From: Gallionella sp.
GTDB lineage: Bacteria > Pseudomonadota > Gammaproteobacteria > Burkholderiales > Gallionellaceae
DNA: 64,000 nt
Reading direction: 5' to 3'
Assembly (NCBI GenBank): GCA_028699065.1
Contig: JAQVVH010000001.1
Coordinates: 1 to 64,000 of the forward strand
Shown piece by piece: positions 54,907 through 61,726 of this stretch. A model generated the notes under the pieces. The model was not told where the DNA came from, searched no databases, and was given only the letters and a program-made list of their open reading frames with translations. A program made the position numbers and the translations under genes. Position 1 is the first letter of the stretch; each line of letters opens with the position of its first letter.

Positions 54907-55248
54907 CTAGCTGACCTCCAGCTCGTACACGCGCATGGCGTCACCGCCGGTAATCCGAATGCGGTAATTACCACACTCCGGGCAGGCATCATAACGGGAT
55001 TCCGGATGAAATTCAGCCGCGCAGTCTTCACATTTCCCCTGCCCGGCCACCTCGACGATCTGTAGCTCGGCTTGCTCGACCAGCGTCCCCTGCATGACGG
55101 AATCGAAACAGAAACGCAGCGCCTCGGGCTCGACACAAGAGAGTTTGCCGATCTCCAGGGTGACACGTTTGACGCGACTGAAACCCTGCTCGCGTGCGGC
55201 ATCCTCAATGATGTGTAGCACACTTTCAGCCAGCGACATCTCATGCAT
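54907..55248 (-). CDS. hypA: HypA hydrogenase nickel-incorporation protein
   Basis: Metallochaperone of 113 residues that delivers nickel to [NiFe] hydrogenase with HypB. The N-terminal 'MHEMSLAESV' holds the nickel-binding His2, and the zinc site is 'CEDCAAEF...CPECG'. The ORF track entry starts 52 codons upstream in another gene; the ATG at 55248 shares one base with the stop of the flavoprotein gene (TGATG). Other hyp genes are not in the window. Confidence 0.95.
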   Translation of the reverse strand: MHEMSLAESVLHIIEDAAREQGFSRVKRVTLEIGKLSCVEPEALRFCFDSVMQGTLVEQAELQIVEVAGQGKCEDCAAEFHPESRYDACPECGNYRIRITGGDAMRVYELEVS

Positions 55249-56870
55249 CAGATGTCTTCCGCCACCATCTTGATAGCGCCGCAAGGGCATTCGGCCACAC
55301 AAAGTCCGCAGCCCTTGCAGTAGTCGTAATTGAACTGGAAGCGCTTGCCGGGACCCAATTTGATCACGGCATTGTCGGGACATACGCCATAACAGTTGTC
55401 GCATTCAAAACAGTTGCCGCAGGACAGGCAGCGGCGTGCTTCAAACAACGCATTGCTTTCGTCCAATCCGCCCTGCACCTCGTCGAAACTGGTTTTTCGC
55501 CGCAAGATATCAAGCATCGGACGCACCGTTTTGTGCGCGTCGGAGTAATACCAGGTATTCAGTTTTCCGAACTCTGCGAGCTCGTGTTTCGGGGGCGGTG
55601 CATAGGTTTCGCCGCGCAGCCAGGCGTCGATATGCCGGGCGGCCTTTTTGCCATGCCCCACCGCAACCGTCACAGTCCGTTCGGAAGGCACCATGTCACC
55701 GCCCGCAAAAATTCCGGGGTGACCGGTCATCATGTTGGTGCCCACCTGCACGACACCATTCTTAACTTCCAGCCCGGCGACACCTTCCAGCAGCGACAGA
55801 TCCACGTCCTGCCCCAACGCCAGCACGACCGAGTCGGCGGCGAGCGTCTCAAATTCACCCGTCGGCTGCGGATAACCCGCCTCGTCGAGCGCCATTTTCT
55901 CGACCATGATTTCGCCTTCGCCGGCCTGCTTGATGGTGGACAACCATTTGATCATCACGCCTTCCTGCAGCGCCTCCTCAATCTCGAAGTCATGGGCCGG
56001 CGCCTTGTCACGCGTACGTCGATAGACGATGATCGGCTCGCCGCCCATGCGTTTCACCGTACGCGCCACATCCACCGCCGTATTGCCGCCGCCATAAACC
56101 ACCACGCGACGGCCCAGCATGGGCTTATCCTCATTCTCCATTGAGCGCAGCACCGACACCGCATCAACGATCTTGGTCGCGTCTCCGGCGGGAATATAAG
56201 TCCGTTTTCCGATATGCGCACCAACTGCCAGAAATGCGGCATCAAAACCGCCGTCCCGCAAACTTGCCTCGATATTTTCAATTTTGGTGTTGAGCTTCAG
56301 CACCACGCCCATATCCAGAATGCGCTGCACTTCAGCGTCCAGTACCTCGCGCGGCAAGCGGTATTTCGGAATGCCGAAACGCATCATGCCGCCGGCCAAA
56401 GGCCCGGCCTCATGAATCTCGACCCGGTGCCCCATGCGAGCCAGATGGTAAGCCGCTGACAAACCCGAAGGACCCGCGCCAACAACCAGTATCTTTTTAC
56501 CCGTAGACGTAGCGGGGGCATCGAATTTCCAGCCGCGCTTGATCGCTTCATCCCCCAGAAAACGCTCGACGGAATTGATGCCGACCGCTTCGTCAAGCTG
56601 GGATCGGTTACAGGCCGATTCGCACGGGTGATAACAGACGCGCCCCATCACCGCCGGCAGTGGATTGTTTTCCACCAGCGCGCGCCAAGCTTGCTCGTAA
56701 TCGCCCGATTCGGCATGAAACAACCACCCCTGAATATTCTCCCCGGCGGGACAGGCGTTGTTACAGGGCGGCAACCGATCCAGATATTCCGGCCGGGAAG
56801 TGCGCCAGGTGCCCGTCAGATTGGTCAGTGACGAACCGGGCTTAAGCGTAATGGCAAACGGTTTCTCCAT
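55248..56870 (-). CDS. GltD-like NAD(P)H flavoprotein with C-terminal 4Fe-4S ferredoxin domain, partner of Por
   Basis: A 540-residue fusion. The N-terminus has the Fe-S segment of the glutamate-synthase small subunit ('LPPCNNACPAGENIQGWLF'). FAD and NAD(P) Rossmann motifs follow ('VVGAGPSGLSAAYHLARMGH' near 132 and 'VVVYGGGNTAVDVARTVKRMG' near 265), with 'GIFAGGDMV' later. The last ~65 residues carry Cys-rich segments ('CLSCGNCFECDNCYGVCP' and 'CKGCGLCVAECPCGAIK'), suited to two [4Fe-4S] clusters. It lies 2 bases after porB and no porD is present, so it probably takes electrons from the Por core and exchanges them with NAD(P)H. No glutamate synthase large subunit is near. The pyridine nucleotide used is unknown. 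Confidence 0.85.
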   Translation of the reverse strand: MEKPFAITLKPGSSLTNLTGTWRTSRPEYLDRLPPCNNACPAGENIQGWLFHAESGDYEQAWRALVENNPLPAVMGRVCYHPCESACNRSQLDEAVGINSVERFLGDEAIKRGWKFDAPATSTGKKILVVGAGPSGLSAAYHLARMGHRVEIHEAGPLAGGMMRFGIPKYRLPREVLDAEVQRILDMGVVLKLNTKIENIEASLRDGGFDAAFLAVGAHIGKRTYIPAGDATKIVDAVSVLRSMENEDKPMLGRRVVVYGGGNTAVDVARTVKRMGGEPIIVYRRTRDKAPAHDFEIEEALQEGVMIKWLSTIKQAGEGEIMVEKMALDEAGYPQPTGEFETLAADSVVLALGQDVDLSLLEGVAGLEVKNGVVQVGTNMMTGHPGIFAGGDMVPSERTVTVAVGHGKKAARHIDAWLRGETYAPPPKHELAEFGKLNTWYYSDAHKTVRPMLDILRRKTSFDEVQGGLDESNALFEARRCLSCGNCFECDNCYGVCPDNAVIKLGPGKRFQFNYDYCKGCGLCVAECPCGAIKMVAEDI

Positions 56871-57883: not shown

Positions 57884-59137
57884 TTAACCGAATTTGGCCG
57901 AGATAACACCCTTGTCGTGCAGAATGTTCTCGGCAATAGGACCGGAGCGCCGATTCAATCTTTCGCGCTCAAGCTGTTTATTGACGGCCGCCTCGTCCAG
58001 ATCCACAAAGGTGACGGGCGGCAGGTCTTCCTGCTCGGCCCGGCAGAACAAGGGATGCAGCGAGGCCTTGGGAATGGGACGACCCCCGAGTCCGGCAATG
58101 GCGGTAAAGCCCTTCAGTCCGGAGCCGGTAACTGCCATGCGGACGTCGGTCGCCAGAATGCCGCCCATACCCACCGCCAGACTTTTCTCCAACACAAGGA
58201 AACGCTTGCAGTTGGCCAGCGCGGCGCGCACCGCCTGCAACGGAAACGGCCGGTAGCTGATAATGCCCAGCACGCCGATCTTGTGTCCCTCGGCGCGCAT
58301 CTCGTCCACCACGTCCTTGATCGTGCCGAGTACCGACCCCATGGCAATAATGACCGTATCCGCGTCCTCAATACGATAGGGCCGTACCAGCCCGCCGCTA
58401 TCGCGGCCAAAAACTTGTTTGAATTCGCCGGCATATTGGGGAATCAGTTCCAGCGCCTGCATCTGTTTGGCATGGGCGAGATATCTGACTTCCATAAACG
58501 CCTCCGGTCCGACCATCGCCCCGATGGACACCGGTTCGGCCGGATCCAGCATCTGCCGTGGTTCGAATGCAGGCAGATAGACATCGACCTGCGCAGGTTC
58601 GGGAATATCGATCCTTTCAAACGCGTGCGTCAGAATAAAACCGTCCATGCAGACCATGATGGGCATGGACAACTCCTCCGCCAGCCGAAAAGCCTGAATG
58701 TGCAAATCCACGGCTTCCTGATTCGTTTCGGCAAACAACTGCATCCAGCCGGAATCGCGTTGCGAGAGGGAATCGGAATGATCGTTCCAGATATTGATAG
58801 GCGCGCCAATGGCACGATTGGCCACCGTCATCACAATGGGTAGCCCCAAACCGGAGGCGTTGTATACCGCCTCGGCCATGAACAGTAGTCCCTGCGATGC
58901 CGTCGCGGTGTAGGTTCGCGCGCCCGCCGCCGAAGAACCGATCGCGACCGACATGGCGGCAAATTCGCTTTCAACATTGATGAATTCGCACGGCGTCAAC
59001 TCACCGGATTTCACCATTTGTCCCAGCGCCTCCACGATGTGCGTTTGGGGTGAGATCGGATAAGCGCAGATGACCTCGGGCCGGCATAGCGCAACGGCCT
59101 CGGCAACGGCGTGGGAACCTTCGGTTTGCTTAAGCAT
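57884..59137 (-). CDS. porA: Pyruvate:ferredoxin oxidoreductase alpha subunit
   Basis: A 417-residue subunit with the pyrimidine-binding and transketolase-C domains. 'YPISPQTHIVEALGQMVKSG', 'ESEFAAMSVAIGSSAAGARTYTATASQGL' region and 'WNDHSDSLSQRDSGWMQLFAE' closely follow archaeal-type PorA and favour pyruvate as substrate. GGGAGG sits 6 bases before the ATG. It overlaps porG by 8 bases. Confidence 0.92.
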   Translation of the reverse strand: MLKQTEGSHAVAEAVALCRPEVICAYPISPQTHIVEALGQMVKSGELTPCEFINVESEFAAMSVAIGSSAAGARTYTATASQGLLFMAEAVYNASGLGLPIVMTVANRAIGAPINIWNDHSDSLSQRDSGWMQLFAETNQEAVDLHIQAFRLAEELSMPIMVCMDGFILTHAFERIDIPEPAQVDVYLPAFEPRQMLDPAEPVSIGAMVGPEAFMEVRYLAHAKQMQALELIPQYAGEFKQVFGRDSGGLVRPYRIEDADTVIIAMGSVLGTIKDVVDEMRAEGHKIGVLGIISYRPFPLQAVRAALANCKRFLVLEKSLAVGMGGILATDVRMAVTGSGLKGFTAIAGLGGRPIPKASLHPLFCRAEQEDLPPVTFVDLDEAAVNKQLERERLNRRSGPIAENILHDKGVISAKFG

Positions 59138-59711
59138 GGGCGCCTCCCTTCATTTGGGCCCGAACCCGTTCATAAGCCTCGGTTGCGGCGGCAACGTTAC
59201 CCTCGGCCACTTTTCCGGAAAACTTTTCGTTGATTGCCAGCACCACGGATTCGAGTTTGATCAGACCTGAAAGCGCCGCAAAACCACCCAGCAAAGGCAC
59301 GTTGGGAATCGGTCGACCAATGTGTTTGAGTCCGATCTCCGTCGCCGGCAAGGCTGCCAGATGTGAAGCCTTGTGCGTGGCGGCAAATTCGCCCAGCCCG
59401 ATATCTTCAAAACTGTGCGAAGTGTTGATCAGAACGTAGCCTTCGGGTTTGAGTCCGGCAAATACATCGATCTGATGCAGCAAGGTGGGATCCTGAATAA
59501 TCAGCGCATCCGGCTGCATGATGGGTTCGCGCAAGCGAATCTCCTTGTCATCAATGCGGCAAAAAGCCACCACCGGCGCGCCGGTGCGCTCCGAACCGAA
59601 GCTCGGAAAAGCCTGCGCGTGTCGTCCCTCCTCAAAGGCTGCGATCGACAACATCTCGGTGGCAGTCACTACACCCTGCCCGCCACGACCATGAATACGT
59701 ATCTGAAACAT
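59130..59711 (-). CDS. porG: Pyruvate:ferredoxin oxidoreductase gamma subunit
   Basis: A 193-residue subunit with the family signature 'RIHGRGGQGVVTATEMLSIA' and 'SFGSERTGAPVVAFCRID'. GTG-ATG-ATG stand in tandem at the start; the last ATG is 5 bases after GGAG and is preferred. It is 17 bases after hoxW, so the por genes are read from the hydrogenase operon unless a promoter lies inside hoxW. Confidence 0.92.
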   Translation of the reverse strand: MFQIRIHGRGGQGVVTATEMLSIAAFEEGRHAQAFPSFGSERTGAPVVAFCRIDDKEIRLREPIMQPDALIIQDPTLLHQIDVFAGLKPEGYVLINTSHSFEDIGLGEFAATHKASHLAALPATEIGLKHIGRPIPNVPLLGGFAALSGLIKLESVVLAINEKFSGKVAEGNVAAATEAYERVRAQMKGGAHA

Positions 59712-59728
59712 CATCACTCCTTAAAATT

Positions 59729-60187
59729 TCAACAGGCTGACTGTCCGCCCCTCGCCAGCCAGCAGCGTGCGGCTTGCAGGGCGCCCGCCAGATTACTCTC
59801 CGCTTCCTTACTCAGGGACGAACCCAGCTCAAAACCGTGACCGCGGATGCGCAATACAAATGCAGGCGGTGGTTCCGCAGCATAGACCTGCCGATAGGCA
59901 TGCAGCAAAGCGGCCGGACTCATGGCATGCGTACTGAAACTATTGTCGTGACTGGCGCCGATTTCGGAAAGTTCAAAGGGTGCGTAACAGGAAACGTCCG
60001 CGTCAACGAACAGAATGGCATCGCGACTGTGCAGATCAGTGACATGTTCCACCTGCCACTGGAAATCCTCGAGAAATTCGGCCTGACCATCCGCCTCGGT
60101 TTGCAACTGACGCAGGAGCAACGGCCCGAGTGCATCATCTCCCCGCGATTCATTGCCAACAGCAAATACCAGCAACGTCTGCGCCAT
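59729..60187 (-). CDS. hoxW: Hydrogenase maturation protease (HoxW-type)
   Basis: Endopeptidase of 152 residues that trims the C-terminus of the hydrogenase large subunit after nickel insertion. It has the family N-terminus 'FAVGNESRGDDALGPLL' (nickel-sensing acidic residue), the second Asp in 'ILFVDADVSC' and a His in 'STHAMSPAALL'. It lies 3 bases after hoxH, which has the matching uncleaved tail. Confidence 0.92.
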   Translation of the reverse strand: MAQTLLVFAVGNESRGDDALGPLLLRQLQTEADGQAEFLEDFQWQVEHVTDLHSRDAILFVDADVSCYAPFELSEIGASHDNSFSTHAMSPAALLHAYRQVYAAEPPPAFVLRIRGHGFELGSSLSKEAESNLAGALQAARCWLARGGQSAC

Positions 60188-60190
60188 TCG

Positions 60191-61687
60191 TCAGTCACTC
60201 GGGCAGGAAACCCCGTCCATATTGCGGGTCAAAACGTCGAGACGTGCACCGTCGGCGGCAAGTAACTCCACTTCCAGCGGCATCTTGCCCAGCGCATGGG
60301 TCGCGCAGGACAGGCAGGGATCGAAAGCACGGATCGCCACTTCGATGTGATTCAGCAGTCCCTCGGTCAATTGATGGCCGTCCAGATGTTGCATCGCCAC
60401 GCGACGGATCGATTCGTTCATGGACTGGTTATTGTGTGTCGTCGAAACAATCAGATTGCAACGCACGATCTGGTCATGCTCGTCCACTTTATAGTGGTGA
60501 ATCAGGGTGCCGCGCGGCGCCTCGATCACGCCGACCCCGCGTTCCTGCCGTTCACCCAGACTGACCAGATCCGTTCCCTGTAAATCGGGGTCCAGTAGCA
60601 ACTCGCGGATCATTTCCGCGGAATGCAGCATCTCAATCATCCGCGCCCAGTGGAATCCCAATGTTGATCGTGCGGGACGGCCGTCATCAAATGCCACGAA
60701 CACGCGGCGCTCGGCCTCGGCCAGTGGTGTCGGAATGAAATCGCACTGTGTCACCCGGGTTAGTGGCCCAACGCGATACCAGCCCTCTTCCGGACCAAGG
60801 CTGCGCAGGAAGGGGAATTTCATATAGGACCAAGGTTTGACGTCCTCGAAAATTACATCCCAGTAATGCCCGTAGTCATAGTGGTCGAACAGCGTATTGC
60901 CCTGCTTGTCGCGCGCGCGCAGCCCCCCGTGATACAAATCCATCGCGCCATCTGCCCGAATCAGTCCCAGAGTGTGCGCGTCAAAACTGCCAAAGGCGTT
61001 GTACAGCGGCAGATTTTGCTCGAAAGCCTGCCGGATGATGCCCACGGCATCTCGGCTCCAGGCGATCATCTGATCGGCATCTTTCAGAAGATAATCGCGC
61101 TCTTCCAGGCTGACATTTTTATTCATCCCGCCGGGAATCGCGCCGGTGCCATGCACCCGCTTGCCGGCGGTCACACGAATGACTTCCTGTCCGAATTTGC
61201 GCAACAGCACGCCTTGCTTCGCGATCTCCGGATATTGGGCGGCTACGCCGACGATGTTGCGCTTGGCCACGTCGGAGTCGAAACCGAACAGAAGATCCGG
61301 CGAAGACAAATGGAAAAAATGCAGCGCGTGCGATTGCAGAATCTGGCCGTAGTGCATCAGGCGGCGAACCTTCTCGGCCGTCGGCGTGAGCGTTGCACCG
61401 ACGATCATGTCCATCGCCTTCGAAGCCGCGAGGTGGTGGCTGACCGGACAAATGCCGCACAGACGTTGCACCATCACAGGCGCTTCCCAATAGGGACGAC
61501 CCTGAATGAATTTTTCGAAACCGCGAAACTCAACGATATGCAAACGCACCTGATGGATGCGATTGTCATCGTCCAGCAGCAGCGTGACCTTGCCGTGCCC
61601 CTCCACCCGCGACACGGGGTCTATCGCGACACGACGGAGATTCTCCGGATGCGCGGCCGTTTCAAGATTTGTGCTGGAATCACTCAT
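60191..61687 (-). CDS. hoxH: NAD-reducing [NiFe] hydrogenase large subunit HoxH
   Basis: Catalytic subunit of 498 residues. The four nickel-iron cysteine ligands are present: Cys77/Cys80 in 'RLCGICPVSHH' and Cys458/Cys461 in 'DPCLSCATH'. A 34-residue tail after His464 is the extension that HoxW would remove. These motifs and the partner genes place it in group 3d (bidirectional, NAD-linked). The ORF track begins at a TTG five codons earlier; the ATG at 61687 is used here, though neither start has a strong ribosome site. It follows hupE after 39 bases, the longest gap in the hox-por cluster. Confidence 0.96.
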   Translation of the reverse strand: MSDSSTNLETAAHPENLRRVAIDPVSRVEGHGKVTLLLDDDNRIHQVRLHIVEFRGFEKFIQGRPYWEAPVMVQRLCGICPVSHHLAASKAMDMIVGATLTPTAEKVRRLMHYGQILQSHALHFFHLSSPDLLFGFDSDVAKRNIVGVAAQYPEIAKQGVLLRKFGQEVIRVTAGKRVHGTGAIPGGMNKNVSLEERDYLLKDADQMIAWSRDAVGIIRQAFEQNLPLYNAFGSFDAHTLGLIRADGAMDLYHGGLRARDKQGNTLFDHYDYGHYWDVIFEDVKPWSYMKFPFLRSLGPEEGWYRVGPLTRVTQCDFIPTPLAEAERRVFVAFDDGRPARSTLGFHWARMIEMLHSAEMIRELLLDPDLQGTDLVSLGERQERGVGVIEAPRGTLIHHYKVDEHDQIVRCNLIVSTTHNNQSMNESIRRVAMQHLDGHQLTEGLLNHIEVAIRAFDPCLSCATHALGKMPLEVELLAADGARLDVLTRNMDGVSCPSD

Positions 61688-61726
61688 AATTTTAAAGGGC
61701 AATACGAAAATAATCGGTCCGGTTCA

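Follow-up and report, generated by a model that had tools for sequence, protein, structure and literature searches.

In many Proteobacteria a flavoprotein that combines the two parts of the PFOR delta subunit, PorD, with a GltD-type reductase probably lets PFOR hand electrons from pyruvate directly to NADP+, bypassing a separate ferredoxin. For the flavoprotein of the Gallionella por operon described here, we hold with good confidence that it is both delta subunit and pyridine-nucleotide reductase, in one chain, of a four-polypeptide PFOR, in which an NADP(H)/FAD module lies inside PorD, the PorD arm and core are docked on PorGAB, and electrons pass from pyruvate to NADP+ without bifurcation. 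The linkage to por genes and the family to which the protein belongs are already known; for the split PorD layout we found no earlier description in the open-access literature.

The por locus and its genome

The window, meaning the whole stretch of 64,000 nucleotides that was analysed, is the start of its contig, and the source assembly (1.96 Mb) is 99.94% complete. The original prediction placed a 540-residue GltD-like flavoprotein 2 bases after porB, and both the open reading frame and the domain calls confirm it. The reading frame starts 2 bp past the porB stop and is preceded, in the same orientation, by porB, porA and porG:

55248..56870 (-), flavoprotein gene, 540 aa: PorD arm, GltD-like NADP(H)/FAD body and PorD-type ferredoxin core; family PRK12771
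56873..57874 (-), porB, 333 aa: a TPP site and, as presumed ligands of the proximal [4Fe-4S] cluster, C45, C48, C77 and C242
57884..59137 (-), porA, 417 aa: PF01855 and PF17147; PorA_Arch 451 bits, cut-off of 550 not reached
59130..59717 (-), porG (gamma), 195 aa: PF01558; TIGR02175 above cut-off
59729..61702 (-), genes for a hydrogenase maturation protease and for the large subunit of a NiFe hydrogenase: adjacent, outside the enzyme

The same genome encodes a second 2-oxoacid oxidoreductase alpha subunit, a separate DsrL within a dsr operon, and the PDH E1 subunit (aceE). The presence of aceE led us to reject the PFOR as the sole route from pyruvate to acetyl-CoA, and it makes the physiological need for a pyruvate oxidoreductase less evident. 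The neighbouring hydrogenase was likewise rejected as an obligatory partner, because among 80 related loci, drawn from public genomes of mostly beta- and gammaproteobacteria, only about 7 have hydrogenase genes beside por. At positions 63611-65413 of the window's contig (L012:1112-2914) the hydrogenase diaphorase subunit, as judged by eye from its sequence, looks like a NuoE-NuoF-type fusion of 600 aa.

PorD parts and flavin body in one chain

A por set lacking the small delta subunit had been claimed from the sequence of this locus, and a profile search extends this to the whole genome: the only PorD_KorD match near cut-off is the tail of the flavoprotein, the next best match (39 bits) being the tail of DsrL, and no separate porD was found elsewhere. 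There is strong support from the sequence comparisons for both parts of PorD being carried by the flavoprotein itself, at opposite ends of the chain and with the NADP(H)/FAD body between them. The N-terminal arm and an N-terminal Fer4_20 domain had both been overlooked in the first reading of the sequence. The elements of the protein, in order from its N-terminus, are:

56781..56864 (-), PorD-type N-terminal arm, residues 3-30, from a gapless alignment to Pyrococcus furiosus PorD (9bt4_G)
56532..56771 (-), N-terminal iron-sulfur domain (Fer4_20), residues 34-113: C36, C40, C79, C83, C87 and E102
55611..56495 (-), FAD/NADP(H) body (Pyr_redox_2), about residues 126-420, with YRR at 283-285
55416..55433 (-), RCLSCG linker motif, residues 480-485, whose C481 and C484 do not vary across the whole-family alignment
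55251..55415 (-), PorD-type 2x[4Fe-4S] core, residues 486-540: C487, C490, C493, C497, C518, C521, C524 and C528

The arm shares with PorD the motif PGSxLxNxTGxWRxxRPxY, and its gapless alignment to 9bt4_G (PFAITLKPGSSLTNLTGTWRTSRPEYL) scores 76, compared with a maximum of 48 among 20,000 shuffles. The core has the delta-type residues, namely the eight cysteines, CPD and YCKGCG. With the full-length protein as query, PorD_Arch (75 bits) and TIGR02179 (65 bits) match at the tail, and the core piece alone gives 61 and 62 bits, respectively. When residues 1-31 are joined to the core, the PorD_Arch score of 61 bits becomes 98 and the TIGR02179 score of 62 becomes 89, whereas control joins reach only 68 and 69 bits with a shuffled N-terminus and 71 and 72 bits with the N-terminus of a NifJ-linked paralogue. 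The match to 9bt4_G rises similarly, from 54.7 bits for the 75-residue tail to 83.6 bits for arm and core joined. The joined sequence is artificial and served as a search query only; the shuffle test on the arm is independent of it. Arm and core are about 450 residues apart, unlike in the contiguous, small form of PorD (~80-105 aa).

Between these two ends the protein resembles known NADPH-dependent flavoproteins. Pfam assigns the body to Fer4_20 and Pyr_redox_2 and the C-terminus to a 4Fe-4S dicluster domain, while the whole protein belongs to NCBIfam NF009410/PRK12771 (774 bits, cut-off 516), a known family that includes DsrL. The predicted structure has a mean pLDDT of 89.6, residues 1-16 not being confident, and the PDB structures closest to it are those of NfnABC, StnC and NfnL. 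The NADPH/FAD body and the arginine at the FAD site are common to NfnB/NfnL (5jca_L), StnC (8oh5_C) and the flavoprotein; Glu102 matches the glutamate ligand of the NfnB proximal cluster, a position at which StnC has a lysine. Unlike these proteins, the flavoprotein has the PorD parts and lacks both a second flavin subunit and the upstream distal-cluster cysteines.

The ligand roles in the Fer4_20 domain were assigned by comparison with NfnB, as in PMC7596348. Glu102 and the other ligands of the proximal cluster are invariant, but the two upstream cysteines that ligate the distal cluster in NfnB are absent, which leaves a gap in the route that would join the PorD core to the cluster on the FAD side. 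The two cysteines of the RCLSCG motif, C481 and C484, fall outside the eight ferredoxin ligands and yet are invariant throughout the family. Together with C36 and C87, they might complete the incomplete distal cluster of the N-terminal domain.

Distribution and partners of the family

Our survey covered 399 genomes of one phylum, the Pseudomonadota, with gene adjacency read by hand from position tables. A PorB of this type is present in 21 of them, PRK12771 scores above its cut-off in 86, and PorD is matched at E<=1e-11 in 20. In 18 of these 20 the PorD match is the tail of a flavoprotein adjoining porB; the other two genomes (G049 and G084) have a genuine delta domain in the por cluster, and in both the flavoprotein lies elsewhere, beside NifJ. 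The flavoprotein-fused and the separate delta are therefore mutually exclusive in this 399-genome sample. In the 21st PorB genome (G208), PorB is near a contig end and a flavoprotein starts just downstream. One of the two separate delta domains, in G084, is part of a 315-aa fusion of PorG and PorD in the por cluster (L179:5298-6245).

The linkage is equally consistent in the 80 related loci, where porB lies upstream of the flavoprotein gene in 79 and the remaining locus begins at a contig edge. Across the loci scanned, no PorD-type motif was found outside the flavoprotein, except for one unrelated-looking match (L092). The suggestion that the flavoprotein stands in for PorD is thus backed more strongly than when it was proposed, by the arm, by the CPD and YCKGCG residues of the core, by the lack of a separate PorD and by this conserved arrangement. 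Three deep-branching PorGAB-linked members (L144, L145 and L146, about 40% identity) keep TGxWR, CPD and CKGCG and are without YRR, so that they may use NAD(H). At another locus (L098:2-3813) porB is followed by two flavoprotein genes in tandem, which fall on different branches of the family tree and would reflect duplication, transfer or an assembly artefact.

Members of PRK12771 are found with three kinds of partner: they adjoin PorGAB, directly precede a single-chain NifJ-type PFOR, or accompany dsrAB, as DsrL. For the comparison of their motifs, the PorGAB-linked set numbers 92 after removal by hand of two rows mislabelled by distance (in L093 and L095, where the proteins taken for Por are other proteins). 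The DsrL set numbers 25; in four of its rows the fetched stretch includes dsrA or dsrB, and the rest were assigned by length and similarity. Both TGxWR and CPD are present in all 92 PorGAB-linked members and in none of the 29 NifJ-linked or 25 DsrL members; YCKGCG is present in 90 of the 92 and again in none of the 29 or the 25. The YRR motif is found in 88 PorGAB-linked members, compared with one of the 25 DsrL. Similarity to the arm survives faintly in the NifJ-linked form, as an eroded trace (median z 4.7), and is absent from DsrL. The family tree groups the NifJ-linked members in a single clade (100/99) that branches among the PorGAB-linked rows and places DsrL outside, though neither its root nor its deep branching is firm.

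The flavoprotein thus differs from each of its relatives in a definable way. PorD itself (P. furiosus 9bt4_G; TIGR02179, NF040684) likewise has an arm and a 2x[4Fe-4S] core with CPD and YCKGCG, and has PorG-PorA-PorB as its partner, but in the flavoprotein the two are split by a module of about 450 residues in the same chain. DsrL (PMC7596348) matches the same PRK12771 model, with the same Fer4_20 domain, FAD/NAD(P) body and C-terminal 2x[4Fe-4S] domain. Its partner, however, is DsrAB, it is usually longer, and in the members examined YRR is mostly absent and the PorD arm, CPD and YCKGCG are never present. The third DsrL criterion of PMC7596348 is that there be no link to pyruvate/ketoisovalerate oxidoreductase genes, and the flavoprotein is por-linked. 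Two DsrL-like genes are in tandem at one locus of the survey (L178, G329:C225:7802-11826). The NifJ-linked members resemble the flavoprotein in family, in YRR and in lying beside a PFOR gene, but the three NifJ partners that were scanned each have their own EKR and 2x[4Fe-4S] domains, and the accompanying flavoproteins are without CPD and YCKGCG and have the eroded arm. This pairing, with the flavoprotein gene immediately before that of a single-chain NifJ-type PFOR, is seen in another proteobacterial family (f51) and a few other genomes (L109-L136, L139-L141 and L143), and it is possible that the pair is a two-gene pyruvate:NADP+ oxidoreductase.

Löffler et al. 2020 excluded from their analysis DsrL-like genes that are linked to pyruvate/ketoisovalerate oxidoreductase subunits (PMC7596348), so the linkage has been seen before. 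We found no description in the open-access literature of the PorD arm, the split layout or the partner-specific signature, nor did we find the flavoprotein described in open-access work on KorC, PadH, the Accumulibacter PFOR and PorD-GltD proteins.

Proposed electron transfer from pyruvate and its implications

What would such an enzyme do? In the arrangement that we favour, a GltD/NfnB-type NADP(H)/FAD module lies between the N-terminal arm and the 2x[4Fe-4S] core of PorD, and arm and core would dock on PorGAB at the site that PorD would take. PorGAB without a delta subunit would miss the two clusters that lead outward, and the flavoprotein would provide both. Electrons from pyruvate and CoA would enter at the TPP in PorAB and pass to the [4Fe-4S] cluster of PorB (presumed ligands Cys45, 48, 77 and 242), then to the pair of clusters in the C-terminal PorD core, and from there through the N-terminal cluster or clusters to FAD and NADP+. 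The net reaction would be pyruvate + CoA + NADP+ -> acetyl-CoA + CO2 + NADPH, making the likely activity that of a CoA-acetylating pyruvate:NADP+ oxidoreductase. With pyruvate oxidation at about -500 mV and NADP+ at about -320 mV, the transfer is downhill, so that the oxidative direction is expected and bifurcation would not be needed. The PorD arm and core, the fold of the body, the NADP motif, the conserved operon and the mutual exclusion with a separate delta can all be read directly from the sequences; that the complex forms, how electrons would run through it and what it would catalyse we infer. By analogy with NfnB and DsrL-2, in which a YRR motif has been described as binding NADP(H) (PMC7596348), the YRR at residues 283-285 predicts NADP(H) as the cofactor.

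Neither the substrate nor the cofactor need be exactly as we propose, and the same architecture could serve another 2-oxoacid physiologically, or NAD(H) in place of NADP(H), although we regard this as unlikely. PorG exceeds the cut-off of its NCBIfam subfamily. PorA and PorB have archaeal-type pyruvate models as their best NCBIfam matches, but both score below the curated equivalog cut-offs, so that pyruvate is a presumed substrate. A characterised relative of the core subunits is PadEFGHI, the phenylglyoxylate:NAD+ oxidoreductase, whose models match here at lower scores. The pyruvate models are nevertheless clearly ahead of the phenylglyoxylate, oxalate and isovalerate models for both PorA and PorB, and YRR is conserved.

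PadEFGHI too is a PFOR-type 2-oxoacid enzyme equipped with a delta subunit and a flavoprotein, which in its case reduces NAD, but these are two polypeptides, PadF (delta) and PadH (flavoprotein). In the pyruvate:NADP+ oxidoreductase of Euglena, PFOR is joined to an NADPH flavoprotein in a single chain; that module is of the P450-reductase type and is unrelated to GltD.

Could the flavoprotein instead be a loosely associated NADPH:ferredoxin oxidoreductase, re-oxidising a soluble ferredoxin that PorGAB has reduced? Gene linkage alone would fit such a role, related flavoproteins work with separate partner proteins (PMC7596348), and the NifJ-linked paralogues adjoin a PFOR that already holds its own ferredoxin domain. 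It is, however, unlikely, because the delta-less PorG-PorA-PorB has no clusters of its own leading out to ferredoxin, these being supplied by the flavoprotein alone, and because the PorD arm and the PorD-specific core residues are retained only in company with PorGAB.

The original prediction had also raised the possibility of two flavin/Fe-S routes and electron splitting, and this part is not supported. The body is indeed NfnB-like, and Arg171 and Glu102, the equivalents of NfnB R201 and of the glutamate ligand of its proximal cluster, are invariant. A flavin-based bifurcating complex is nonetheless very improbable, given the single FAD site, the incomplete distal N-terminal cluster, the lack of an NfnA-like second flavin subunit within the operon region, and a transfer from pyruvate to NADP+ for which coupling is unnecessary; StnC retains the same arginine, yet its FAD has been described as non-bifurcating (PMC10482914).

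Despite its GltD-like fold and GltD-type family matches, a glutamate synthase small subunit lying by chance beside por can be dismissed, as a search for such a partnership instead found a complete gltB with its own adjacent gltD elsewhere in the genome, GltD models score the flavoprotein far below cut-off (174-261 bits, cut-offs 448-483), the por linkage is conserved and the PorD parts are present.

The origin of the family can be addressed only tentatively. One scenario, which we consider rather doubtful, is that a GltD-type flavoprotein was inserted inside PorD, giving rise to a proteobacterial family of soluble pyruvate:NADP+ oxidoreductases, and that the module of this PFOR-bound ancestor was later passed to single-chain NifJ-type PFORs, with loss of the PorD features, and to DsrAB. 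If this were true, DsrL, the electron partner of reverse sulfite reductase, would derive from a PFOR delta subunit.

For the family as a whole, the split PorD layout gives a clean sequence rule that separates the PFOR-bound members from DsrL and from the NifJ-linked form, all of which are lumped together by one family model. The reading of the flavoprotein as a combined delta subunit and NADP+ reductase predicts that PFOR in many beta- and gammaproteobacteria, including the Gallionellaceae, the Rhodocyclaceae (Accumulibacter, Propionivibrio), Rhodoferax and purple sulfur bacteria, would feed NADP+ and not ferredoxin. If that is true, metabolic models of polyphosphate-accumulating, iron-oxidising and sulfur-oxidising bacteria, in which PFOR is usually taken to supply low-potential ferredoxin, would change.
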